From contig JAGMZX010000003.1 of the NCBI GenBank assembly GCA_018005585.1, positions 39,751 through 91,022 on the forward strand: a stretch of DNA of 51,272 nucleotides. Direction: 5' to 3'. The notes beneath the pieces are model-generated. The model worked only from the letters and a program-made list of their open reading frames with translations. It did not search any database and was not told the DNA's origin. Below are positions 10,340 to 22,835 of this stretch, in pieces. The number at the start of each line of letters is the position of its first letter. The stretch's first letter is position 1. Made by a program: the position numbers and the translations under genes. Origin of the DNA: Candidatus Hydrogenedentota bacterium. GTDB taxonomy: Bacteria > Hydrogenedentota > Hydrogenedentia > Hydrogenedentales > JAGMZX01.

Positions 10340-11815
10340 ATGAGCAAGACCACATCGGCAGACCGCCCCCTGGTCATCATTCTCCTTGGCGCTTCCGGCG
10401 ACCTGGCTCTGAAGAAGGTGATTCCGGCGCTCTTTGCGCTGTACAGCCGGCGCTTGCTGCGCGAGCGTGTGCGGTTCGTCGGTTACGCGCGTTCTCCCAT
10501 GACGACAGAGGCTTTCCGCGAACGCATCATGGCGCATCTCACCTGCCGCTACGTGCCCGGCGAGAAATGCGATGATTGGATAAGCCGATTCCTCGACCGC
10601 TGCACGTACGTTTCCGGTCAATACGATTCTCCGGATGACCTGCGCCGGCTCCAGGAAATCGTCAGGCCGTCCGACGCGGACACGCCAGTCGATCGCATCT
10701 TCTACATGGCCATCCCGCCATTCTTGTTTCTGGACGTGGCGCAGTCCCTGGCAGGTGCGGGCCTCGTCACCGGTTCCGCGGAATCCGGCTGGTCGCGCGT
10801 AGTGATCGAGAAGCCGTTCGGGCGCGACCGCGCCTCGTCGGATGAACTCACGCGCAACATGACGCGGGTGTTTACGGAAGAGCAGACCTATCGTATCGAT
10901 CACTATCTCGGCAAGGAGGTTATCCAGAATCTCCTTGTCCTGCGTTTCGCCAACCTTATCTTTGACCCCATTTGGAACCGCGCGCATATCGAGCAGGTAA
11001 AGATTTCCTGGATGGAGGACATCGGCCTGGAAGGCCGCGCGGGTTACTTCGACGACTACGGCATCATCCGCGACGTCATGCAGAATCATTTGCTCCAGAT
11101 CCTCGCGCTCGTCGCAATGGAGCAACCGGTCCGGCTCGAGGCGGGGTATGTGCGCGACGAGAAAGTGAAGGCGCTCCGCTGCGTGCAGCCCGTGACCGTT
11201 GAAGACCTGGTTACGGGCCAATACACGGCGGGCGCGCTGGAAGGGCGGCGACGCCTCGGCTATCTCGAAGAGGAAGGCATCCCCGCGGGCTCGGTCACGC
11301 CGACCTATGCCGCCGCCGCACTGCACGTGCGCAACCGTCGCTGGGACGGCGTGCCGTTCCTGATCCGCGCCGGAAAGGCGCTCAACGCGCGCATGACAGA
11401 AATCCGCATACGTTTCCGGCCCGTGCCGGGCAACATCTTTCTCCATGCCGCGGGCCATCTCGCCAACAACGAACTGATTATCCGGGTCCAGCCCGATGCG
11501 GCGATCACCTTTCGCATCGTCAATAAAGTGCCCGGTCTTGGCATCACGCTCGAAGAAAGCGACCTCGACCTGCAATACGCCTCCGCCTTTCCTGTTCAGA
11601 TTCCCGATGCATATGAGTGCCTGCTCCTTGACGTCATCGAAGGCGACCGCAGCCTGTTTATTCGCGCCGATGAACTGGCCGCGGCGTGGGACATCTTCAC
11701 GCCGGTGCTGCACGAGCTGGCGACGCGCGGAACCAAGCCGCGGCCCTATTCGTTCGGCAGCGCCGGCCCCGAGGCGGCGCAGGCACTCGCTGCTCGCTAC
11801 GGCGCCACGTGGTGA
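10340..11815 (+). CDS. zwf: Glucose-6-phosphate 1-dehydrogenase
   Basis: 491 residues, the usual length for the family. It oxidises glucose-6-phosphate to 6-phosphogluconolactone with reduction of NADP+ (or NAD+), the first step of the oxidative pentose phosphate pathway, in the cytoplasm. Visible signatures are the nucleotide-binding GASGDLA (17-23), EKPFGRD (157-163) and the substrate-binding RIDHYLGKE (185-193). The His of this motif is in place; the catalytic base would be a second His further along. The ATG at 10340 has GGAG in the end of the upstream gene, 12 bases away. pgl begins 6 bases after its stop, so the two successive enzymes are encoded together and probably translationally coupled. 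Confidence 0.97.
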   Translation: MSKTTSADRPLVIILLGASGDLALKKVIPALFALYSRRLLRERVRFVGYARSPMTTEAFRERIMAHLTCRYVPGEKCDDWISRFLDRCTYVSGQYDSPDDLRRLQEIVRPSDADTPVDRIFYMAIPPFLFLDVAQSLAGAGLVTGSAESGWSRVVIEKPFGRDRASSDELTRNMTRVFTEEQTYRIDHYLGKEVIQNLLVLRFANLIFDPIWNRAHIEQVKISWMEDIGLEGRAGYFDDYGIIRDVMQNHLLQILALVAMEQPVRLEAGYVRDEKVKALRCVQPVTVEDLVTGQYTAGALEGRRRLGYLEEEGIPAGSVTPTYAAAALHVRNRRWDGVPFLIRAGKALNARMTEIRIRFRPVPGNIFLHAAGHLANNELIIRVQPDAAITFRIVNKVPGLGITLEESDLDLQYASAFPVQIPDAYECLLLDVIEGDRSLFIRADELAAAWDIFTPVLHELATRGTKPRPYSFGSAGPEAAQALAARYGATW

Positions 11816-11821
11816 TTGCGC

Positions 11822-12496
11822 ATGCCCGCTATCCTTGAGAAGACCTTTTTTTCGCCTGCGGCGCTTCTCGAAGCCGCGCAACACCTCCTGCGCGAAGAAC
11901 TGCGGCGCGTCTCGACGCAATCGCGCGCGGTCATCATTTCCGGAGGACGCACCCCCCTCCCCATCTATCACGATATTGCGCAGTCGGCGTCTCCGGCGGC
12001 GCCGAATGTGAGTGTCTGCTTCAGCGATGAGCGGCACGTCCCGGCCGGTTCTCCAGAAAGCAACTACGGCAACGCCCTTCCCATGCTCGAGGCGCTGCGG
12101 CTGCCTCAGGAACGTATCCTGCGCGTCAGGACCGAACTGTCCCTGGAAGAAGCCGCCGCGGATTATGACGCGGCACTTCACGCGTTTCTCGACCGAAGCG
12201 GACAAATCCCCCTCGCCCTGCTCGGCATTGGTCCCGACGGGCACACATGCTCTCTCTTTTCGGACGCCGACCTCGAGCGTGCGCGCGAGCGCTACGCGAT
12301 CCCCGTTACGCGGCCTGAACCGCCCCATCGCGTGAGTGTTACACCCGGACTGCTGGCGCATGTCGAGCGCGTCCTGTTCCTTGTCGCGGTTCCTGATAAA
12401 GACACGATTATCCGGCAATTGCTGGAAGCCCCCATGTCCGTCGTCGCGGGCAAGGCCGTCGCGGACTGTCCCCACGTCGAACTGTGGCGGGCGTAG
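11822..12496 (+). CDS. pgl: 6-phosphogluconolactonase (DevB type)
   Basis: About 224 residues, matching the SOL/DevB family. It hydrolyses 6-phosphoglucono-1,5-lactone, the product of the zwf enzyme encoded just upstream. Family features: ISGGRTPLPIY near residue 40, CFSDERHVP followed by SNYG, and GIGPDGHTCSLF, which carries the catalytic-type acidic and His residues of the glucosamine-6-phosphate-isomerase fold. A TTG at 11816 is in frame directly after the zwf stop, but the ATG at 11822 is the conventional start; no strong ribosome binding site is visible, consistent with coupling to zwf. A gnd or edd gene does not follow in this window. Confidence 0.95.
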   Translation: MPAILEKTFFSPAALLEAAQHLLREELRRVSTQSRAVIISGGRTPLPIYHDIAQSASPAAPNVSVCFSDERHVPAGSPESNYGNALPMLEALRLPQERILRVRTELSLEEAAADYDAALHAFLDRSGQIPLALLGIGPDGHTCSLFSDADLERARERYAIPVTRPEPPHRVSVTPGLLAHVERVLFLVAVPDKDTIIRQLLEAPMSVVAGKAVADCPHVELWRA

Positions 12497-12910: not shown

Positions 12911-15787
12911 TCAATTGGTTGCGCCGCCTGCGCAGAAGGACGCGAAGCGCCAGGCGGACCCGTCGTGAAGCAGTGTGCCGGTGAACGGATAGGGTCCGGC
13001 CCCGAAGGCAGGCGATGCGATGTCCCACGTGCCGGACATAACCGCAACGTCTCCCTGTACCGCCATGCCGTCTATCGTCAGGAGGGACCGCGCCGCCGCG
13101 CCCCACATGACCGCTGTGTCCAGCATCGTGACCAGGTAATCCGGCTCTCGGAACACGAAATACTCGCCGTTTTGTGTCGCCGCCGCCATCAGACATGCCC
13201 CATTATGGTAAATGCCATGCAGACCGCGCGTGTGTCCTTCCCGCAGTGCCCCCTCCCACCGGTGCGCCAAATCCGACAACGCTTCCGCCGTCCCGGCGTC
13301 CGGCGTTTCCGGTTGCCGCAAAACAGTCAGCGTGAGGAATCGCAGCGCGCCGCGCGGCCCGTCGGGCGTGGCAGCAAACCATGCCTTTGCCGGAGCGCCG
13401 CTACTGCCCGCCAACTCCAACTTCCCGATAACAAACCGCCCCGCATCTCGCGCTTCGCGCGCCTGCGCGCGGCAGGTTGCATCAAGACGGAACGCCTGCG
13501 CTCGCTCAGGACTGCGCCGCAATTCCTCGCGCGTCGCAGTGATTGCGCCGCTGCTCCCGCATGATACCGCCAGCGAACCCTGGCTGCTGAACAAGGTCCA
13601 AAGCGGCGGGTCACCATTTGCCAGCGCGCGGCACAATGCTTCCGCGAGTTGCTGCTCAGCCGCGGCGGGCTCCCCAAGCGGCCCGGTTTCCGTTTTGCCC
13701 CGCAGACTCTGAAGCAGTGGCTCCCGGTGCGCGTTGTCTGCAACGAGGAACGTCAGGCCGCGCGTGGCCGTATCCGGCAGGGCCGCGGGGTTGCCCCAGC
13801 GATCAAAGGAATGTACCCCGGGCGGTATCGCGACAGGCAGGGGCTCCTCCCCGTCTCCGTCGCTGTGCAGCACGACGATAATCGTGGGCGCTTTGCCATA
13901 GGGCCGGTCCGCATGCTGTTCAAACACATGTGCGCTGATATCGTGTGCGGGGCGCAATCGCTCTCTGTACGCCGCTCCCTCGACAAAATGCGCGAGCGCC
14001 GCGAGCGTAAGATGCATCGGCTTGAGCAAATACTCCGGTTCGACCAGCATGTGCGTTGGCCAGCCATGACGCGGGTCGTCGTGTGTCGAATAGGCAATGA
14101 AACAACGGTTTCCAGCGGCAATCGCGCTGAGGTACATCCGCGCGTACTGGTCCGCGCCACGCGACCAATCGCCGACGATTTCGGGGTTCGCGAAGGAGAA
14201 AAACGAGCCGTGGAACCGCGCCACGTCCGGGCCGCCCTCGCTGAACAATAGCGGCTTAGGCGCGCCGTACTTTGCCTGCTCCGCGTTCAAGCGTGCGGCC
14301 ACACGCGCAATGGCGTCGTTCGGACACCCGTGCAGATTCGGGTCGTACCGATGCCACGAGAGCATGTCAAAGTACGGATATGCCCCCTCGGCCAGCACCA
14401 ACTGTTCCCAGAACGGCGGGTAGGTATTTACGCCGGCAATAGTGCTATCGGGATTTGCCGTTTTTGCCTCCTCATATGCCGCGCGCAACAGTTTTGCGTA
14501 GAATTGCGGCGTACCGCCGGGAAAGAACCGGAACATGTCCCAAGGCTCGTTCCATACCTCCCAGCGGTCGATCCGGCCGGCGTAGTGTCCGACAACCGCA
14601 CGCACATAGGTTCGCCAATGGTCCACGCTGCGCGGCAGGCCGTAGATACTCCAGTAACCGCCTTGCTGCGTGCCCGATTCCCATGCCGGGGAACCATCGA
14701 GCATGCCCAGCACGCAGAGGCCGCGGTTCCGCGCCAAGTCGATTTCCGCGTCGAACCACCGCCACTTGCCCGGCTCCGGCTCCGCCACGCCCCACTTCGT
14801 GCATGCCGCGGCGTCGTGGATGCGGCACCACTTATAGCCCAACCTCGCCACCGCGCTGACATCAGGTTCGCGCAACGCCACATGCACGCCGAATGGCGAA
14901 TCCGGGCATAGCCCGGCCACCGGTTCCGCGGCCCGCGCCAGCAGGGTCTCTCCCATGAGCGATAAGGGCGCGCCCGCGGTATTGGCAACGTGCGCCTCCA
15001 CACGCAGCATACCGTTCAATGTCGTTGCAGACCCGGTCAGTTCCAACGTCTGTTGCCAAAACCCGGTCCCGTTGATGGGAACACTCGGACAGTCTTCCGT
15101 CGCGCCCGTGGCATGAATGAGGCGCAGCGCGAGGCGGCTTGCGTCCTGCGCGCCTACGACCCGCGCCTTGATGCGATGCGCCTCCAAACCTGTGACGACG
15201 CCCCAAGGGGCCACCGGTTCCAGGACAACCCCTGCAGGGTGCACCGGCGGACGCCACTCGGGCGGCAACGGCGCGACCTCCTCGCTTAACCACAACCCGT
15301 CCAGCCAGACCGTGCAGTTCTCGCCCTCCAACGCCAGCGAGAGGAAATAATGACCCTTCAGTGCTTCCGGCAGCACCCCCTGCAAGACGATGCCTGCCCA
15401 TTCCTTCCCGGCCATCGCCGTCCGGGACAGCAACCCTTGTTCCGGCTGATTATTGTCCCGCAGCGTCAAGAATACCTTGGCCCCCGGCGGCTCTGAACGC
15501 ACCCAGACCGCGGCCGCGTGCGGCAACCCGGCGCGTAACGCCCGCGCGGGGCCGAGAAGCTCCGCTCGTCCCCTGCCCTCGAATTGCAGCCGCGCGGCGC
15601 CTGTGCCGAACGGCTCCGCGGCATCGTCCGCCGTCCAGGAAACATTGTCTAGCTCCGCCAGCCAGCCGGCGCCCAGGCCCGCACCCAAATGTTCCATGTT
15701 AAGCAGGTTCTCATCTGCGTTCGCAGCGCTTCCCAAGAGCACGGAAGCAAAGCACGCTGATAGCGCCATCCGCAGGCTAAGGTGCAT
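12911..15787 (-). CDS. Secreted clan GH-A glycoside hydrolase (GH39-like) with C-terminal NTF2-like region
   Basis: 958 residues with a signal peptide (first ~24, cleavage near SAANA-DE). Residues ~30-170 look like a carbohydrate-binding beta-sandwich, ~190-290 like a second beta domain, and ~296-590 like a (beta/alpha)8 barrel. In the barrel, Glu414 of WNEP is the predicted acid/base and Glu517 of FSEGG the predicted nucleophile, the spacing and context expected in clan GH-A families such as GH39. The WHRYD motif also fits. The last ~120 residues (from about LAHRWEGAL, ending DGSAWRFASF) resemble an NTF2/SnoaL-like fold, which is unusual on such an enzyme. The ATG at 15787 has AAGGA 12 bases upstream. 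Substrate unknown; beta-xyloside-type bonds are a guess. Confidence 0.75.
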   Translation of the reverse strand: MHLSLRMALSACFASVLLGSAANADENLLNMEHLGAGLGAGWLAELDNVSWTADDAAEPFGTGAARLQFEGRGRAELLGPARALRAGLPHAAAVWVRSEPPGAKVFLTLRDNNQPEQGLLSRTAMAGKEWAGIVLQGVLPEALKGHYFLSLALEGENCTVWLDGLWLSEEVAPLPPEWRPPVHPAGVVLEPVAPWGVVTGLEAHRIKARVVGAQDASRLALRLIHATGATEDCPSVPINGTGFWQQTLELTGSATTLNGMLRVEAHVANTAGAPLSLMGETLLARAAEPVAGLCPDSPFGVHVALREPDVSAVARLGYKWCRIHDAAACTKWGVAEPEPGKWRWFDAEIDLARNRGLCVLGMLDGSPAWESGTQQGGYWSIYGLPRSVDHWRTYVRAVVGHYAGRIDRWEVWNEPWDMFRFFPGGTPQFYAKLLRAAYEEAKTANPDSTIAGVNTYPPFWEQLVLAEGAYPYFDMLSWHRYDPNLHGCPNDAIARVAARLNAEQAKYGAPKPLLFSEGGPDVARFHGSFFSFANPEIVGDWSRGADQYARMYLSAIAAGNRCFIAYSTHDDPRHGWPTHMLVEPEYLLKPMHLTLAALAHFVEGAAYRERLRPAHDISAHVFEQHADRPYGKAPTIIVVLHSDGDGEEPLPVAIPPGVHSFDRWGNPAALPDTATRGLTFLVADNAHREPLLQSLRGKTETGPLGEPAAAEQQLAEALCRALANGDPPLWTLFSSQGSLAVSCGSSGAITATREELRRSPERAQAFRLDATCRAQAREARDAGRFVIGKLELAGSSGAPAKAWFAATPDGPRGALRFLTLTVLRQPETPDAGTAEALSDLAHRWEGALREGHTRGLHGIYHNGACLMAAATQNGEYFVFREPDYLVTMLDTAVMWGAAARSLLTIDGMAVQGDVAVMSGTWDIASPAFGAGPYPFTGTLLHDGSAWRFASFCAGGATN

Positions 15788-15856
15788 CGGGCAAGGTTTC
15801 CTTGGAGCGCGGGCGCGTCAGACATGGGCCGCGACGGGCCCTCTGGGGAAGCTTAT

Positions 15857-16318
15857 TCATTTCTCGGCCGGGTCTTCTTCGAGACAGCGTTGCATCTCGG
15901 GAAACTGCTCGCGATATTTGACGACCGTCAACAGACTCGGCGCGGGATTGTCTTCGAGCATACGGTTCAGCGCGTTCAGCATCTCGCGTTCGTTCGGCGC
16001 CACTTGGCAATCGTCAAAGACTACGCGCAAGACTGCCGAGACGGCGGCAATGCCGAATACTCCCGCGTCCTCGTCCTGCGCGGCCTGCGCCAAGGCTTCC
16101 ACTTGCGCCCGCTCGGATTCCGGAATCTTCCCCATGGCGAGCAGCTCGCGATACTCGTTCGCGAATCGTTTCTGCATGGCTGTGCGGGTTTCAGTCAATT
16201 GTGTGGCGGCTTTTCGATAGACCACCGCACCGGCGGCCAACGCCATGCAAAGCGCGACCACCCCTCCGGCCGCGCAACCGCGCAGCCAGCGCCGCTCAGG
16301 GCGTTGACCCTCGCTCAT
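15857..16318 (-). CDS. Small membrane-anchored protein of unknown function
   Basis: 153 residues. A short basic N-terminus is followed by one membrane helix (~14-34, AGGVVALCMALAAGAVVY), then ~115 mostly helical, charged residues that would lie outside the cytoplasm. I do not recognise the family. Its ATG overlaps the stop of the upstream MEMO-family gene by four bases (ATGA, 16315-16318), so the two are surely co-translated and may act together. Base composition matches the neighbours. Confidence 0.7.
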   Translation of the reverse strand: MSEGQRPERRWLRGCAAGGVVALCMALAAGAVVYRKAATQLTETRTAMQKRFANEYRELLAMGKIPESERAQVEALAQAAQDEDAGVFGIAAVSAVLRVVFDDCQVAPNEREMLNALNRMLEDNPAPSLLTVVKYREQFPEMQRCLEEDPAEK

Positions 16319-17568
16319 GCGCCGTCCTTTGCGCTTTCCGCGAATGCCATGCTGGCGAACGACACGATGCCGCCCGCCGGGTCAGGCGCGTGCCCATAAT
16401 GCAGCACGCGTCCCACGCACGCGTCGTCCAGCATCTTCAGCGTTGCGTAGATGCAACCCAGACCACAGACTTTTCGCGCATTACCGTCCTGCATTACCGA
16501 TCCATACCAACGCTGGGGCGCGCACGCCGCCGCGTGGGCCAAGTCCTCTTCGTCACGCAGGCGCACCGCCTCGACCACGCCGTCGTCGATGTCGAAGGGG
16601 TCGCCGAACCGCTTGCCAACGTGGGCCAGGTCGGCGCCCGCGATCACCGAAACCCGGCGTTCGGCCGGCGCGGCATAGGCGCGGCACGCCTCCAGAAACG
16701 TCGCGACGGGCTCGATACCGGACGGGTCCGTGTTGTCACAGTCTTCCGAAAACGGCGCACACAGAATAGGAACAATCCTGACGGCCGTCCCGTAAAGGTA
16801 GGCCAACATGACCGCCTGAAACTCGACGGAATGCTCGTTCCGGTGCGCAAGTTCATTGGAGAAGATGTCCCATCCACAGGCCGCCGCAATGTGGTCGACC
16901 GCGTCCCGGTCCGTGTCCAGAACGCCGAAAGGCGTGGCGAACGGTTTGCGCGTGACGATGAAAGGCGTGGAGCCTCCCGCGTGCGCGACGCCAAAAATGA
17001 ATACGGTCCTGGGAACGCCCGCTTCGTACAAGCGCTTGTAGCCATGGGCGTAGGCCGCGCCACCGCGCGTAAAATCGATGTGCGGCACAATCACGCCGCG
17101 AAGAGGCGGCGCATCGTCTCCGCCGCGGGGTCCCAGCGCTCCTGGCCCTCCGTCAATAACGAAAAAGCTGTCTATGAATGCGCGCAGCAGCGCCGGGTCG
17201 CTTGGATAAGACTTGTCGGCAAATGCAGTAGGCCTCAAAGGCGCTTCTCGAAACTCCGCTTCCATCCGGGCCAGGCGCTTCAAGTAGCGGGGCGTCAACA
17301 GGAACCCCGCTTGGTCCAGATACTCAACGACCTGCATGATCTGGTCTTGCGGGACCTGCGCACCGCCGCATTGCTGGGCGAAGATGCTCTGCACTGCCGC
17401 AAGGTCGTTTTCGCCATCGAGACAGCTGGCGATGAGGAAAGCGTGGGGCGACAACAACAACTGTTCCTCGACGCACCCCGAGGGGTCGTGCATACAGAAG
17501 TGCGGCTGGCCCTCGTGCTCAATGAGCACTGTTTCAATCGCGCGTAGAGGCGGCAATGGCTTAGTCAT
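16315..17568 (-). CDS. amrB: MEMO1/AmmeMemoRadiSam system protein B with N-terminal PqqD-like extension
   Basis: 417 residues. Residues ~155-410 are a MEMO1 domain, related to metal-dependent extradiol dioxygenases. The expected metal-site residues are visible as His163 (VPHIDF), His196 (GVAHAGG) and Cys368 (VCGLGC), with EHSVEF at 245-250. The ~110 residues in front of it (LLLSPHAFLIASCLDGEN, then a winged-helix-like stretch ending GFLLTPRYLKRL) resemble a PqqD-type peptide-recognition domain; this is my inference. In many bacteria the domain occurs with an AMMECR1 protein and a radical SAM enzyme; neither lies next to it here. Biochemical function of bacterial members is poorly known. The ATG at 17568 follows AGGTC. 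It overlaps the small membrane-protein gene. Confidence 0.88.
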   Translation of the reverse strand: MTKPLPPLRAIETVLIEHEGQPHFCMHDPSGCVEEQLLLSPHAFLIASCLDGENDLAAVQSIFAQQCGGAQVPQDQIMQVVEYLDQAGFLLTPRYLKRLARMEAEFREAPLRPTAFADKSYPSDPALLRAFIDSFFVIDGGPGALGPRGGDDAPPLRGVIVPHIDFTRGGAAYAHGYKRLYEAGVPRTVFIFGVAHAGGSTPFIVTRKPFATPFGVLDTDRDAVDHIAAACGWDIFSNELAHRNEHSVEFQAVMLAYLYGTAVRIVPILCAPFSEDCDNTDPSGIEPVATFLEACRAYAAPAERRVSVIAGADLAHVGKRFGDPFDIDDGVVEAVRLRDEEDLAHAAACAPQRWYGSVMQDGNARKVCGLGCIYATLKMLDDACVGRVLHYGHAPDPAGGIVSFASMAFAESAKDGA

Positions 17569-17670
17569 GATGACCTAGCCTAAAGACCCGGAGGCCGTGG
17601 ATGCAATCCCCCCTGCAGAGTCGTTTTTCGAGCACGCAGCCAGGCTGTCGCCGTCTGGCGCATCCGGCGG

Positions 17671-18465
17671 TCATATGTCCTGCAGGCGTTCTTGTGCGTA
17701 CGCCACGGCGTTGCGAAAAACCTGCAGGCCGAATCCTTCCTCAGGGAGGTTCTCGCGCGTCCAGCGGGGATGCTGCGTGCGCGTGACAAAAGCCTCCGGG
17801 TGCGGCATCAGTCCGAATACACGGCCGGACGGATCGCAGATACCCGCGATATCGTCGATCGCGCCGTTGGGATTCGCGGGATAGATGCCCTGCGCGGGCG
17901 CGCCGCCGGGCGTGGCGTACCGGAACACGACCTGACCGTTGGCGCGCAGCTTTTCGAGCGTGGCGCCGTCTCGCGGGATGAACTTGCCCTCGCCGTGGCG
18001 GATGGGCACTTCGAGGCTGGTGATGCCCTTTGTCCATACGCAGCGGTTGGCGGGAACGGCTGTCAAGGTTACCCAACGGTCTTCAAATCGGCCCGAATCG
18101 TTGTTTGTAACGGTCACTTCCTGCCGGAATTCGCCGTTGAACAGCGGCAAGATGCCCATTTTCACCATAACTTGGAACCCATTGCAGATGCCGATGGCGA
18201 GTTTGCCCGCCCCAAGAAACTCGTGGAGTGGTTGGCCGAGCTTGAAACGCAGCCTGTTGGCGAGAATCTTGCCGGATGCGACGTCATCGCCAAAGGAAAA
18301 GCCCCCGGGAATGGCGAAGATGTGAGATTGCCGAAGTTTCTCCGGATCGGCGACCAGGTCGTTTAGATGGACGAACGCAGCCTCCGCGCCGGCCAGACGA
18401 AACGCGTGCGCTGTCTCGTTTTCGCAGTTAATCCCGAATCCGGTCAATATCAGTGTGCGTACCAC
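17671..18465 (-). CDS. purQ: Phosphoribosylformylglycinamidine synthase, glutaminase subunit PurQ
   Basis: 264 residues, a class I glutamine amidotransferase that supplies ammonia from glutamine to PurL for step four of IMP synthesis. Signatures: GFGINCENE near the start, IPGGFSFGDD, and GICNGFQVM with the nucleophilic Cys. The C-terminal His-x-Glu is in LMPHPEA. It starts with GTG at 18465 (MVRTLIL); an ATG is not available upstream in a sensible context. It is the last of the purM-purL-purQ set, 124 bases after purL, a gap that contains inverted repeats. Confidence 0.96.
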   Translation of the reverse strand: MVRTLILTGFGINCENETAHAFRLAGAEAAFVHLNDLVADPEKLRQSHIFAIPGGFSFGDDVASGKILANRLRFKLGQPLHEFLGAGKLAIGICNGFQVMVKMGILPLFNGEFRQEVTVTNNDSGRFEDRWVTLTAVPANRCVWTKGITSLEVPIRHGEGKFIPRDGATLEKLRANGQVVFRYATPGGAPAQGIYPANPNGAIDDIAGICDPSGRVFGLMPHPEAFVTRTQHPRWTRENLPEEGFGLQVFRNAVAYAQERLQDI

Positions 18466-18589
18466 AAGCCTGAATGCCTTTCAATGCTCATCATCCGTCT
18501 CGATACCCCGCCCCGGCGGTGTATCGCTTCCTCCAGGCGCTTTGCGCCGTTCCCTGACGCCCATTACACACGCCCATCACCAATGGGCG
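18466..18589 (-). repeat. Inverted and direct repeats between purL and purQ
   Basis: Directly after the purL stop lies a 7-bp inverted repeat, CGCCCAT (18571-18577) and ATGGGCG (18583-18589), with a 5-base loop. CGCCCAT recurs at 18558-18564, so two alternative pairings are possible. A further GGCGC-TTT-GCGCC stem lies closer to purQ (~18537-18549). There is no T-run, so these may stabilise or process the purL 3' end rather than stop transcription. Confidence 0.4.
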
Positions 18590-21550
18590 CTACCAGCGCA
18601 GTGGCCGTTGCCACGCTTCCTTGAGTTCCGCGAGCGGCGCTTGGATTGATGCGCCGTTGCGGCTCGCCACTTCGAGAAGCGAATCCGGCGTCACGACGCC
18701 CAGCCGCGTCACCGGGCACCCATCCAGCGCCGTTTCGAAACGGTCCGATTTCTCGGGAGGCACGGTAGCGACGAACCGGCTCTGCGACTCGCTGAACAGA
18801 GCAACAACATCGCTCTCGATATCCATCGGGGCGAGATCGAGGCGCATGCCATAACCGCCTGCGAAGGCGCTCTCGGCCAGCGCCACGGCAAGACCGCCGT
18901 CGCTGCAATCGTGACACGAAGCGACGAGTCCTTCGCGGATGGCCGACGACAGCTTTTCGTAGAGCAGGCGCGCCCTCGCCGGATCGACTTTCGGCACGTT
19001 TGCGCCCAGTTGCCTGCGCAGCGCGAGATACTCGCTGCCGCCCAGTTCGTTTCTCGTCTCACCAAGGACGTATACAAGGTCGCCGGGTTTCTTGACGTCC
19101 ATCGACACGACCTTGTCCGTGTCTTCGATGATGGCGGCGGCGGTGAACAGCACGGTCGGCGGGATCGAGATCTTCGTATCGCCGATCTTGTAGTCGTTCT
19201 TCATGCTGTCCTTGCCGCTGATGAGCGGGATGTCGTAGGCGGTGCAGACGTCGTACAGCGCCTCGCAGGCGCGAACAAGCTGCGCGAGTTTGAAGCGGCC
19301 ATCGGGCGTCTTCTCGCTCTGTACCGGATCGGGCCAGCAGAAGTTGTCGAGGCCGGCGATAAGCCCGAGCCGCGCGCCCACCGCAATCAGATTGCGGACG
19401 GCTTCGTCGATGGCGCACGCCATCATGTGGTACGTATCGAGGTCGCTGTATTTCGGGCAGATGCCGCAGGAGACCGCGAGACCGCGTTTCGAGCCGGGCA
19501 CGGGCCGGATCACGCCCGCGTCGCCGGGGCCGTCATGATGGACGCCCTGGAACTGCTTGAGTACGCTCTGCCCCTGCACTTCGTGGTCGTACATACGCAC
19601 GAACACTTCCTTGCTGCAGACGTTGAGCGAGCCAAGCACCGCTTTCAGGTCTTCGGTCAGGTTGGTGTCCCCGACGATGATTTCCGGTTCCGGTTGCGGG
19701 GGCGTCCAGGCCGCCTCGAGGCGCATCTTGGGAACGCCGTCGTGCAGGAAATCCATGTCGAGCGCGCCGATTAGCTCGCCGTCGTAATAACACTCGAGAC
19801 GTCCCGCGTTCGTGAAATCGCCGAGCACGGTCGCCTCGACTTCCCGCTTCCTCGCCAGCGCGAGAAAGGCGTCGATCTTCTCCGGCGGCACCGCGAAAGT
19901 CATGCGCTCCTGCGCCTCGGACAGGAATATCTCCCAGGGGGCGAGTCCGGCATACTTCAGCGGAGCGCGTTCAAGATGCACTCGCGCGCCGCCCGCGCCA
20001 CGCGCCATCTCCCCGACGCTCGAGGACAGGCCGCCCGCTCCGTTGTCGGTAACGCTGTTGTACAGGCCAAGGTCGCGCGCTTCCAGCAGGAAATCGGCCA
20101 TTTTCTTCTGTGTGATCGGGTCGCCGATCTGCACCGCCGTCGCAGGCGAACCCTCGTGCAACTCTTCAGACGAGAACGTCGCGCCGTGGATGCCGTCCTT
20201 GCCGATGCGTCCGCCGGTCATGACGATGAAATCGCCCTTGCAGGCCTTCTTCACGTGGCTGGGCCGCCCGGCGACTTCGCGCGGGATCAGGCCTCCGGTA
20301 CCGCAGAACACCAGCGGTTTGCCCAAGAAACGGTCATGAAAGACGATAGCGCCGTTTATGTCCGGGATGCCGCTCTGGTTGCCGCCGTCTTTCACCCCGC
20401 GATGCACGCCGCGCAAGACGCGCCGCGGATGCAGCAGGCGTTCCGGGATTTCGCCCTCGTAGAACGGCGACGCGAAGCAGAACACATCCGTATTGAAGAT
20501 ACAACGGCAGCCAAGCCCCGCGCCGAGCACGTCACGGTTCACGCCGACGATGCCGGTCATCGCGCCGCCATATGGATCGAGCGCGGACGGGCTGTTGTGC
20601 GTCTCGGCCTTTAGTGCGAAGTTGTGGTGCTCATCAAACCGGATAGTGCCGGCGTTGTCGTCGAACACGCTAACGAGCCAGTCGACCTTTTGGGCGACCG
20701 CATCGGTTGTTGCCTTCACATATGTTTTGAACAGGCTGTTGACCGTCCGTTCCTGCCCGGTTTCGTCCGTGTACTCTATGTCAGCATTGAAAATCTTGTG
20801 CTTGCAGTGCTCGGACCAGGTCTGGGCGAGGATTTCGAGTTCAATATCGGTCGGGCGCGGCGGCAGGCCGAGCTCCTCGCGGGCGGCGCGCACCGCCGGA
20901 TCGCGGTAGTGCGCCTGAATGGCCTTCATCTCGTGCCGTTCGAGCGCGAGCACCATGTCCCGGCTCAATTGCTGCAAGGCGTCATCGGATTGTTCAAGAT
21001 CGATTTCATGGACTTCCGGGTCGCTTTGCGTGGTGACGATCGGGAGCGCCAGCAGCGGCTTGCCGTCCAACGCGCGCATCTCGGCGGCGGACTTCACAAC
21101 CCATTGTTGAATAAGCTCGTTCGCCAGCAAATCGCGGGCTATTCGCGCGCACGTTGCCGTATCCACGCCGCCGCGAATGGCGTACAGCGTAGACTTGAAC
21201 ACCGTTTCGCCCGCGGCCAGCGGGCGGCCCAGCACGTCGGCAATTCCCTCCGCGGAAGTCTTGCCAACGTTGTCCGTGACGCCCGGCAGGAATCCAACCT
21301 CGACTACGAAATCGTAATCACGCGCCAGCGACCGGTTAATCGCTGACTGTTGAATGACCGGGTCGGTGAATAGTTCGCGACGGACGATTTCCAGGTCTTC
21401 GTCCGTCAAGGCAGCATGGATCGTATAGACGTCAATGGCGCGCACCTCATCGACGCGTATATCCAAGTCTTCGGCCAGTTGACTTCGCACCGACGCGCCC
21501 GCCGGGTCAGGCAAGCCAGGTTTCATCGCCACTTCGATACGGCTAGGCAT
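18590..21550 (-). CDS. purL: Phosphoribosylformylglycinamidine synthase PurL with fused PurS-like N-terminus
   Basis: 986 residues. The core (from ~185) is the ATP-dependent FGAM synthase catalytic subunit, which converts FGAR, ammonia and ATP to FGAM. It shows the PurL signature TWSEHCKHK, ETHNSPSALDPYGGA, KDGGNQSGIP and, in the second half, SGKDSMKNDY and CHDCSDGGLAVAL. Small PurL proteins are usually ~730-750 residues and need a separate PurS. Here the first ~170 residues hold two PurS-like alpha/beta stretches (MPSRIEVAMKPGLPDPAG, then DYDFVVEVGFLPGVTDNVG), so PurS appears fused. No separate purS is in the window. The ATG at 21550 overlaps the end of purM by eight bases. Confidence 0.95.
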   Translation of the reverse strand: MPSRIEVAMKPGLPDPAGASVRSQLAEDLDIRVDEVRAIDVYTIHAALTDEDLEIVRRELFTDPVIQQSAINRSLARDYDFVVEVGFLPGVTDNVGKTSAEGIADVLGRPLAAGETVFKSTLYAIRGGVDTATCARIARDLLANELIQQWVVKSAAEMRALDGKPLLALPIVTTQSDPEVHEIDLEQSDDALQQLSRDMVLALERHEMKAIQAHYRDPAVRAAREELGLPPRPTDIELEILAQTWSEHCKHKIFNADIEYTDETGQERTVNSLFKTYVKATTDAVAQKVDWLVSVFDDNAGTIRFDEHHNFALKAETHNSPSALDPYGGAMTGIVGVNRDVLGAGLGCRCIFNTDVFCFASPFYEGEIPERLLHPRRVLRGVHRGVKDGGNQSGIPDINGAIVFHDRFLGKPLVFCGTGGLIPREVAGRPSHVKKACKGDFIVMTGGRIGKDGIHGATFSSEELHEGSPATAVQIGDPITQKKMADFLLEARDLGLYNSVTDNGAGGLSSSVGEMARGAGGARVHLERAPLKYAGLAPWEIFLSEAQERMTFAVPPEKIDAFLALARKREVEATVLGDFTNAGRLECYYDGELIGALDMDFLHDGVPKMRLEAAWTPPQPEPEIIVGDTNLTEDLKAVLGSLNVCSKEVFVRMYDHEVQGQSVLKQFQGVHHDGPGDAGVIRPVPGSKRGLAVSCGICPKYSDLDTYHMMACAIDEAVRNLIAVGARLGLIAGLDNFCWPDPVQSEKTPDGRFKLAQLVRACEALYDVCTAYDIPLISGKDSMKNDYKIGDTKISIPPTVLFTAAAIIEDTDKVVSMDVKKPGDLVYVLGETRNELGGSEYLALRRQLGANVPKVDPARARLLYEKLSSAIREGLVASCHDCSDGGLAVALAESAFAGGYGMRLDLAPMDIESDVVALFSESQSRFVATVPPEKSDRFETALDGCPVTRLGVVTPDSLLEVASRNGASIQAPLAELKEAWQRPLRW

Positions 21551-22604
21551 ACTGCAATGTCCCGGTATAGTTCACTTTGCGCTCCCCCGCCAGTACACGG
21601 CCGACTATCATGGCTTTTTGGCCCGCCATCTCGATGTTCTCAATCGCCTTGGCCGCGTCTTTTTCAGGGACCACGATGAGAAAACCTATGCCCATGTTGA
21701 ACGTGCGCAGCATCTCGCTGTCCGCAACGCGGCCCGCTTCCTTCAGGAAGGCGAACAGGCGCGGTACCGTCCAACTGCCGAGGTCAATCTCGACACCGGC
21801 GCCGTCGGGAAGCACGCGCGGCAAATTGTCGGTGATGCCGCCGCCCGTCACATGCGCCATGCCACGCACATCAACGAGTTTCATAACGATTTGCATGAGT
21901 TTCGCGTAGGTGATGTGCGGCTCCATGAGCGCTTCCGCGACGGTCCTTCCGAGGCCGGGGATTTCGTCTTCCGGTTTGAGTTTGGCCGCCTCGAAAACAA
22001 TCCGCCGCGCCAGGCTGTAGCCGTTGGTGTGAAGCCCCGAGGACGGAAAGCCAATGACAACGTCACCGGGCTCGATGTGGGAGCCGTCCACGATGTTCTT
22101 GCGGTCTACGACGCCCACAATTGTTCCCGCCAGGTCGTATTCGTTTGCCGCGTACATTCCCGGCATCTCCGCCGTCTCGCCGCCGATGAGCGCACAACCG
22201 GCGTAGCGGCACCCCGCGGCCACGCCGCGAATAACATCGCCGATGATCTGCGGATCCATCTTGCCCGTGGCAAGATAATCGAGAAAGAACAAAGGCCGCG
22301 CGCCTTGGACGAGGATGTCGTTCACGCAATGCGACACCAAGTCCACGCCGACGGTATCGTGCTTGTTGGTCATGAACGCAAGTTTGAGCTTCGTGCCGAC
22401 GCCGTCAACGCTCGAGACGAGGACGGGCGCTTCCATCTCTTTCACGTCGAGCAGGTACATGGCCCCGAAACTGCCGAGGTCCTGCAAGACATTGTCATTG
22501 AACGTGCGCTTTATTGCCTCTTTCGCGCGGGACAGGGCCTCGTTCGCGGCATCGATATCGACGCCGGCGTCTTTGTAACTGAGGCCCGGTGCGTGTTCAC
22601 TCAT
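21543..22604 (-). CDS. purM: Phosphoribosylformylglycinamidine cyclo-ligase PurM (AIR synthetase)
   Basis: 353 residues, the family's usual length. It closes the imidazole ring: FGAM plus ATP gives AIR, the step after PurL. Signatures are YKDAGVDIDAANE at the N-terminus, SVDGVGTKLKLA, GGETAEMPGMY, GLHTNGYSLARR and HVTGGGITDNLPR. The frame is open up to 22793, but the ATG at 22604 (MSEHAPG) is chosen because it has GGAGG about 11 bases upstream and matches the normal N-terminus. First gene of the purM-purL-purQ group. Confidence 0.97.
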   Translation of the reverse strand: MSEHAPGLSYKDAGVDIDAANEALSRAKEAIKRTFNDNVLQDLGSFGAMYLLDVKEMEAPVLVSSVDGVGTKLKLAFMTNKHDTVGVDLVSHCVNDILVQGARPLFFLDYLATGKMDPQIIGDVIRGVAAGCRYAGCALIGGETAEMPGMYAANEYDLAGTIVGVVDRKNIVDGSHIEPGDVVIGFPSSGLHTNGYSLARRIVFEAAKLKPEDEIPGLGRTVAEALMEPHITYAKLMQIVMKLVDVRGMAHVTGGGITDNLPRVLPDGAGVEIDLGSWTVPRLFAFLKEAGRVADSEMLRTFNMGIGFLIVVPEKDAAKAIENIEMAGQKAMIVGRVLAGERKVNYTGTLQYA

Positions 22605-22835
22605 GGTTGGGGTTCCTCCGGAAAGAAAACAAGAATACCGGCCGTGGGCGGTCAAAGCAAATGCAGCGCCCTTGCGCGTCCGGCCGAACCGGCCGTTGAC
22701 ACCGCGCTTCCGGGCGCACACCCGCGGACGGGCCGCTGCACGCTGGCGCATGCAGCACAACGGAAATGTTAAGATGCCGCCCGTGCTTGCCAACGCCGGA
22801 ATACTGCCTCATATTCGATTAGGGTGAGACACCGC
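22605..22835. other. Divergent spacer between purM and ogt
   Basis: 231 bases that must hold the promoters of both divergent genes. I see ribosome binding sites at both ends (GGAGG for purM, AGGGTGAG at 22821-22828 for ogt) but no convincing -35/-10 pair and no purine riboswitch-like core. Confidence 0.4.

Follow-up and report, generated by a model that had tools for sequence, protein, structure and literature searches.

A gene of Candidatus Hydrogenedentota encodes what appears, judged from sequence, to be a MEMO-type metalloprotein of two domains belonging to a distinct MEMO subfamily, which we call RRE-MEMO. Its N-terminal domain would bind a peptide or protein and present it to the metal site of the MEMO domain, a reading to which we assign a probability of roughly 0.45. 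The features concerned lie in the window, by which we mean the whole stretch of DNA analysed (51,272 nucleotides):

16315..17568 (-): RRE-MEMO protein, 417 aa, with an N-terminal PqqD-like domain and a MEMO metal-binding domain (metal site predicted)
17239..17568 (-): PqqD-like/RRE-fold domain, residues 1-110
16381..17226 (-): MEMO domain, Pfam match to residues 115-396
15857..16318 (-): single-pass membrane protein, 153 aa, its first bases overlapping the MEMO stop (ATGA)

The Pfam Memo family (PF01875) matches residues 115-396 of the 417-aa protein with 133.2 bits against a cut-off of 27 (E-value = 1.3e-38), and no signal peptide was seen on this protein. The closest named locus, among the matches listed, is 73% identical. 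No promoter-like sites were found at window positions 15600-17800, where two terminator-like sites compare with 2.3 expected from shuffles.

Distribution and phylogenetic position

RRE-MEMO is present in 47 of the 68 Hydrogenedentota genomes (matches with E-values below 1e-40); eight further genomes exhibit weak matches only, which we took for paralogues. We retained 40 Hydrogenedentota loci, leaving out the seven of the 47 genomes with only partial copies, and an alignment of 37 orthologues was built from these without three truncated genes (L040, L049, L058). A wider scan (one genome per species, two peptide motifs) found at least 567 stretches encoding relatives, of which the best 80 were examined for their titles and for the extra domain. 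The titles of these best 80 of at least 567 include Rokubacteria, Deltaproteobacteria, Syntrophaceae, Dadabacteria, Elusimicrobia and Binataceae, and further Planctomycetota, Poribacteria, Latescibacterota, Verrucomicrobiae and others. The alignment of 70 proteins, the window's included, omits 11 of these 80 loci, either as partial (L081, L101, L102, L105, L106, L111), for want of a proper start or stop (L117, L128, L131, L156) or for an over-long start (L144).

A phylogenetic tree of MEMO domains, taking 34 of the 70 RRE-MEMO rows and 18 other MEMO domains, places the two groups on opposite sides of one branch with a support of 100/100, a split that is helped by the selection of sequences through MEMO motifs. 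The other MEMO proteins in this tree come from genomes that also carry RRE-MEMO. One locus titled Tectomicrobia (L089) groups among the Hydrogenedentota, and its title may be a mislabel. RRE-MEMO is a widespread and separate MEMO branch.

Predicted metal site of the MEMO domain

The AlphaFold2 model of the MEMO domain matches the human MEMO1 structure 3bcz with Z 30.5 over 276 aa. With the full-length model, extradiol dioxygenases come next after MEMO1, at Z about 16-18. When the profile of the 37 orthologues is aligned with MEMO1 (7kq8, E-value = 1.9e-15), residues H163, H196 and C368 fall in the human motifs PHAG, GPSH and CG, respectively; their residue-by-residue match to MEMO1 numbering was counted manually. 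The iron ligands of MEMO1 are H49, H81 and C244 according to PMC11081632. The window protein keeps the metal ligands of human MEMO1 and is predicted to form a metal site, in agreement with the initial annotation, which had assigned both histidines and the cysteine of the site to this domain.

Residues H163, H196, D313 and H316 are invariant in the 70-protein alignment. Residue C368 is kept in 68 of the 70 proteins and is replaced by aspartate in L104 and L157, a natural change in the direction of the 2-His-1-carboxylate site that extradiol dioxygenases have. Despite the related fold (Z 16-18), the site is not of the 2-His-1-carboxylate LigB type, its third ligand being cysteine in those 68 sequences. 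Both traits of the Memo family, the MEMO fold (Z 30.5) and conserved His-His-Cys ligands, are found. RRE-MEMO thus resembles human MEMO1 (3BCZ, 7KQ8) in fold and in its His-His-Cys motifs; MEMO1 differs in having no N-terminal RRE domain, and the RRE-MEMO motifs PHID-x-x-RG, ADLAHVG and EHSIEFQ depart from the MEMO1 forms.

The N-terminal domain

All 37 intact Hydrogenedentota orthologues conserve the N-terminal extension, which is about 108 residues long; it is also present in the 69 aligned loci of the named scan, some of which are from the same genomes as the 37. A wrong start codon or a chance extension can therefore be rejected. The AlphaFold2 model has a pLDDT of 95.8 at full length and 96.0 for residues 1-110 alone. 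It exhibits strands at residues 12-18, 21-27 and 37-39 and helices at 41-48, 56-66 and 74-87, with a further helix (93-108) connecting the domain to the MEMO domain. PMC12710340 requires of an RRE three strands followed by three helices, and this is the order seen in our model. The extension of about 110 residues with winged-helix appearance, as it was first described, is thus a conserved and confidently predicted three-strand, three-helix domain. Within it D28, G52 and L84 are invariant, and R9, D51, D85 and F106 nearly so.

In a structural comparison (VIA) of the N-terminal domain alone, the top match is TfuB1 with its leader (6jx3, Z 9.4 over 83 aa, 3.1 A), a score only modestly above background, since Z values of 7-8 are common for models that lack a clear match. 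TbiB1 (Z 8.7 and 8.6) and TigE (Z 8.4) follow, then the winged helices of PKMT (Z 7.8-7.4), and then the RREs of MccB, a heterocyclase and PbtF. The top rows (Z 9.4, 8.7 and 8.6) bear out a structural likeness to leader-bound RREs. In the full-length comparison, residues 2-93 match lasso B1 RREs, TigE, PKMT, PqqD, MccB and TruD. Winged helices of PKMT and GdmN, which are not known to bind leaders, score Z 6-8 against the N-terminal domain. Foldseek returned no match to the domain alone at E≤0.001 (best E-value = 0.075).

Profile comparison points in the same direction as the structures. HHalign aligns the N-terminal profile with 24 PqqD-family proteins (of 30 matches, from 18 genomes), giving a probability of 93.8 over 55 columns; two control alignments gave 0.8 and 0.9. 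Scanned singly, 23 of the 37 N-terminal domains match PF05402 (PqqD) at E≤10, the best at 3.3e-5, and the next Pfam family matches three of the 37; in the wider set, PF05402 matches 21 of the 70 at E≤1. The profile matches Xanthomonas PqqD (3g2b) with an E-value of 0.0069. The top PDB sequence matches of the profile are TALE repeats, which we set aside because their scores add up over many copies and no single stretch is significant. No Pfam family, PF05402 included, matches the first 114 residues of the window protein itself, and in the genome of the window PF05402 has no match at E≤1. The PqqD-like character first proposed for the extension is thus borne out by the predicted fold, the leader-bound RRE matches and the profiles of its relatives, while the proposed profile check holds for 23 of the 37 relatives and fails for the window's own sequence. 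We class the domain as a PqqD-like fold, not as PqqD.

Relation to the AmmeMemoRadiSam system

The window protein matches NCBIfam TIGR04336 (AmmeMemoRadiSam system protein B) with 95.3 bits against a cut-off of 26, and all 70 aligned RRE-MEMO proteins match it at E≤1e-5. RRE-MEMO could therefore be a stray protein B, working with AMMECR1 and a radical SAM protein encoded elsewhere. Such a role would agree with the finding of AMMECR1 in 42 of the 47 Hydrogenedentota genomes with RRE-MEMO, and with two genomes where the genes adjoin: in G059 (C345) an AMMECR1 match lies about 40 bp from RRE-MEMO in convergent orientation, and in G089 (L127; C51 15446-18178) a canonical MEMO gene, AMMECR1 and RRE-MEMO are consecutive on one strand. 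AMMECR1 is, however, about as common in Hydrogenedentota without RRE-MEMO (17 of 21 genomes, Fisher p 0.44). Outside this comparison, we sampled carrier genomes from 50 of the 54 named loci (omitting L141, L144, L149 and L151, and including L089). AMMECR1 is present in 13 of these 50 and was not found in 37, where single absences weigh little as completeness is not given; in 33 of the 50, a single MEMO match was found and AMMECR1 was not.

The window's genome contains four MEMO genes. One is fused to AMMECR1 and adjoins a radical SAM gene (C10), another is followed by AMMECR1 (C36), and a third has neither AMMECR1 nor a radical SAM gene in the 3.8 kb around it (C13). The window gene has neither partner beside it, both being on the other contigs C10 and C36. 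Two MEMO genes of this genome are thus already joined to or followed by AMMECR1, which together with the 100/100 branch and the 37 sampled carriers makes a stray protein B very improbable, and we reject a dependence on AmmeMemoRadiSam. The same observations lend no support to the original idea that the gene had lost, or become separated from, its usual partners, since canonical MEMO, AMMECR1 and radical SAM genes persist elsewhere in the genome. RRE-MEMO shares with protein B the MEMO domain and a score over the cut-off, and differs by its extra domain, its separate branch and its frequent occurrence where AMMECR1 was not found. The name AmmeMemoRadiSam protein B is hence a poor guide, the automatic label covering proteins that often live without AMMECR1.

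The neighbouring membrane protein

The TGA of the 417-aa ORF and the ATG of the 153-aa ORF have the four bases ATGA in common, exactly as the overlap was first reported. The 153-aa protein exhibits one hydrophobic segment from about residue 15 and has no convincing Pfam or PDB relative. Its family lies directly downstream of RRE-MEMO in six of the 37 intact Hydrogenedentota loci (G000, G040, G045, G034, G033 and G044, with two copies each in G045 and G034, and in G044 a copy of which 24 residues precede the contig end). These six loci represent five genera in three families and exceed chance expectation. Six is a lower bound, because in two loci the sequence stops shortly past the MEMO gene (L044 after 261 bp, L055 after 95 bp). 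The four-base overlap of the window recurs in G033, giving two genera; in G040, of the same genus as the window's genome, there is no overlap and a likely GTG start follows the MEMO stop.

The membrane protein might tether the MEMO protein or present a membrane substrate to it, as a functional pair. Besides the six adjacent loci and the overlap in two genera, this would agree with the genomic distribution of the family: its profile matches 24 of the 68 Hydrogenedentota genomes, of which 21 contain clear members and three only weak partial matches (E-values above 1e-5), and RRE-MEMO is present in every one of the 21 (Fisher p 1e-4, weak matches excluded), an association that shared ancestry confounds. 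Two of the weak matches (G021 and G037) are nevertheless in genomes without RRE-MEMO, copies elsewhere have few neighbours common to different genera, no member was found downstream in the other 31 of the 37 loci, and the profile matches none of 50 further genomes sampled, so that among the genomes sampled the family was found only in Hydrogenedentota. We consider a functional pair improbable. The pairing proposed initially is real, its adjacency being above chance, but with six of 37 loci and none of the 50 further genomes it is local, and a lock across the RRE-MEMO family is rejected. At best, the membrane protein has an accessory role in some Hydrogenedentota.

Precursor peptides and peptidase genes

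Neighbour counts were obtained by clustering unannotated ORFs with BLAST, family names being taken from one representative per cluster. Among 97 loci (40 + 57), a search within 1.5 kb for ORFs of 20-100 aa clear of larger conserved ORFs found no precursor peptide gene near RRE-MEMO. The small ORFs recurring in at least three loci amounted to one convergent ORF plus its antisense shadow, both in six loci of Syntrophaceae. A RiPP precursor beside the gene is rejected on this search, and the conserved nearby precursor gene that marks a RiPP enzyme was thus not found in these loci.

Of the 54 loci whose titles place them outside the phylum, 15 have an upstream M20 peptidase, always within 16 bp and in ten of them with a 4-base overlap (start codons chosen manually). 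An M19 dipeptidase is downstream in eight (within 300 bp in seven), together with hydantoinase B upstream in seven; Lon is upstream within 300 bp in six, and a fumarylacetoacetate-hydrolase-type gene divergent upstream in six. In total, M20, M19 or Lon is found on the same strand within 300 bp in 28 of the 54 loci, a pattern that we treat as a lead and not as a test because it involves about three lineages and was noticed after the fact.

Possible function

We propose that the N-terminal domain would dock a peptide or an exposed protein segment, as RREs do, and would hold the bound strand so that a nearby residue could reach the MEMO metal site. The metal site might then modify or cleave the presented peptide or protein, and RRE-MEMO would act without AMMECR1 or a radical SAM protein. 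In favour of presentation are the AlphaFold2 fold, the matches to leader-bound RREs, the HHalign probability of 93.8, the conserved ligands, the 100/100 branch and the 28 of 54 loci with peptidase genes; against it are the lack of a Pfam match for the window's N-terminal domain, the Foldseek result, the modest Z, the failure to find a precursor and the proximity of AMMECR1 in G059 and G089. Human Memo is said to bind a phosphopeptide in its active site, which fits presentation. A related arrangement has been described in TglHI, where the passage of PMC9016710 concerned models the RRE of TglI as presenting the peptide to the iron enzyme TglH. RRE-MEMO is alike in combining an RRE with a metal centre that would act on a peptide (non-haem iron in TglHI), with a weak structural match (Z 4.7). 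TglHI differs in that its catalytic subunit is of another family (DUF692), its RRE is on a separate chain and its precursor peptide is known.

The N-terminal domain might instead have a purely structural role as a PqqD-shaped piece, packing against the MEMO domain, covering the active site or forming a dimer, without binding any external peptide. The conserved residues (D28, G52, L84, R9, D51, D85 and F106) could then be interdomain contacts, some enzymes for which no leader binding is known do have RRE-like winged helices, and no precursor peptide was found nearby. Yet the domain is predicted to be an independently folding unit (pLDDT 96) and its nearest structures are leader-bound RREs; a purely structural role is in our opinion unlikely, though a serious competitor. 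We consider it very unlikely that the winged helix binds nucleic acid, with the MEMO domain acting on RNA or DNA or sensing metal for regulation: lower-ranked matches do include Fur/Mur-type proteins, NsrR and other DNA-binding winged helices (Z 4-5), but RREs outrank them (Z 9.4 against about 5).

If presentation of a peptide or protein is indeed the role of the N-terminal domain, a RiPP precursor is less likely as its substrate than some peptide or protein, housekeeping or recycled, whose gene lies elsewhere, given the lack of a precursor gene beside RRE-MEMO and its presence in many phyla. Syntrophaceae are strictly anaerobic, and such carriers disfavour an obligatory O2-dependent reaction; oxidation and a non-oxidative step such as cleavage are equally likely. 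It is a more speculative proposition, on which we would not insist, that RRE-MEMO forms a widespread and mostly non-RiPP branch of peptide- or protein-modifying or -cleaving metalloenzymes independent of AmmeMemoRadiSam, with M20, M19, hydantoinase B and Lon as recurrent, operon-like partners in peptide or amide turnover. Were this true, the fused recognition domain would reveal that MEMO-fold chemistry acts on peptides.

Relation to known proteins

Fusions of an RRE to Memo-like proteins (PF01875) have already been listed, and called unprecedented in RiPPs, in PMC12710340 (mSystems, Nov 2025). Those fusions resemble RRE-MEMO in joining an RRE/PqqD-like domain to a Memo domain; the part of that paper that names them gives them one clause, without analysis of subfamily, distribution, neighbourhood or metal site. 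Memo is not named in the main text of the 2020 RRE-Finder paper. The architecture is therefore already in print; within the open-access literature searched, what is added here is the subfamily, how often it is independent of AMMECR1, and its gene neighbourhood. PqqD and the RREs of lasso-peptide B1 proteins (5SXY, 5V1U, 6JX3) share with the N-terminal domain the three strands followed by three helices and are its top structural matches; they differ in that no leader peptide gene was found near RRE-MEMO. MEMO1 is widely conserved, yet PMC11081632 describes what it primarily does at the molecular level as unknown. That RRE-MEMO carries a peptide-recognition fold suggests what class of substrate MEMO may have, and it offers a soluble protein with which that class can be tested.

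Other genes around the MEMO gene

Directly upstream of the window's MEMO gene, on the same strand, are purM, PurL and purQ (17671-22793 (-); names read from Pfam matches), the PurL carrying an N-terminal PurS-like stretch (PF02700, E-value = 6.5e-6). A function in a purine operon is rejected, purQ being found in one of the 40 Hydrogenedentota MEMO loci, the window's own. Positions 12911-15787 (-) encode a protein of 958 aa whose GH39/GH10 matches are weak and fall short of the cut-off, and 10340-12496 (+) a glucose-6-phosphate dehydrogenase followed by a 6-phosphogluconolactonase-type protein. Of the 40 Hydrogenedentota loci L035-L074, 16 have a divergent glycine-zipper lipoprotein next to the MEMO gene and 17 a divergent small membrane protein; these neighbours suggested no mechanism. 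Further on, some of these loci encode a protein that we take to be PIG-L-like.
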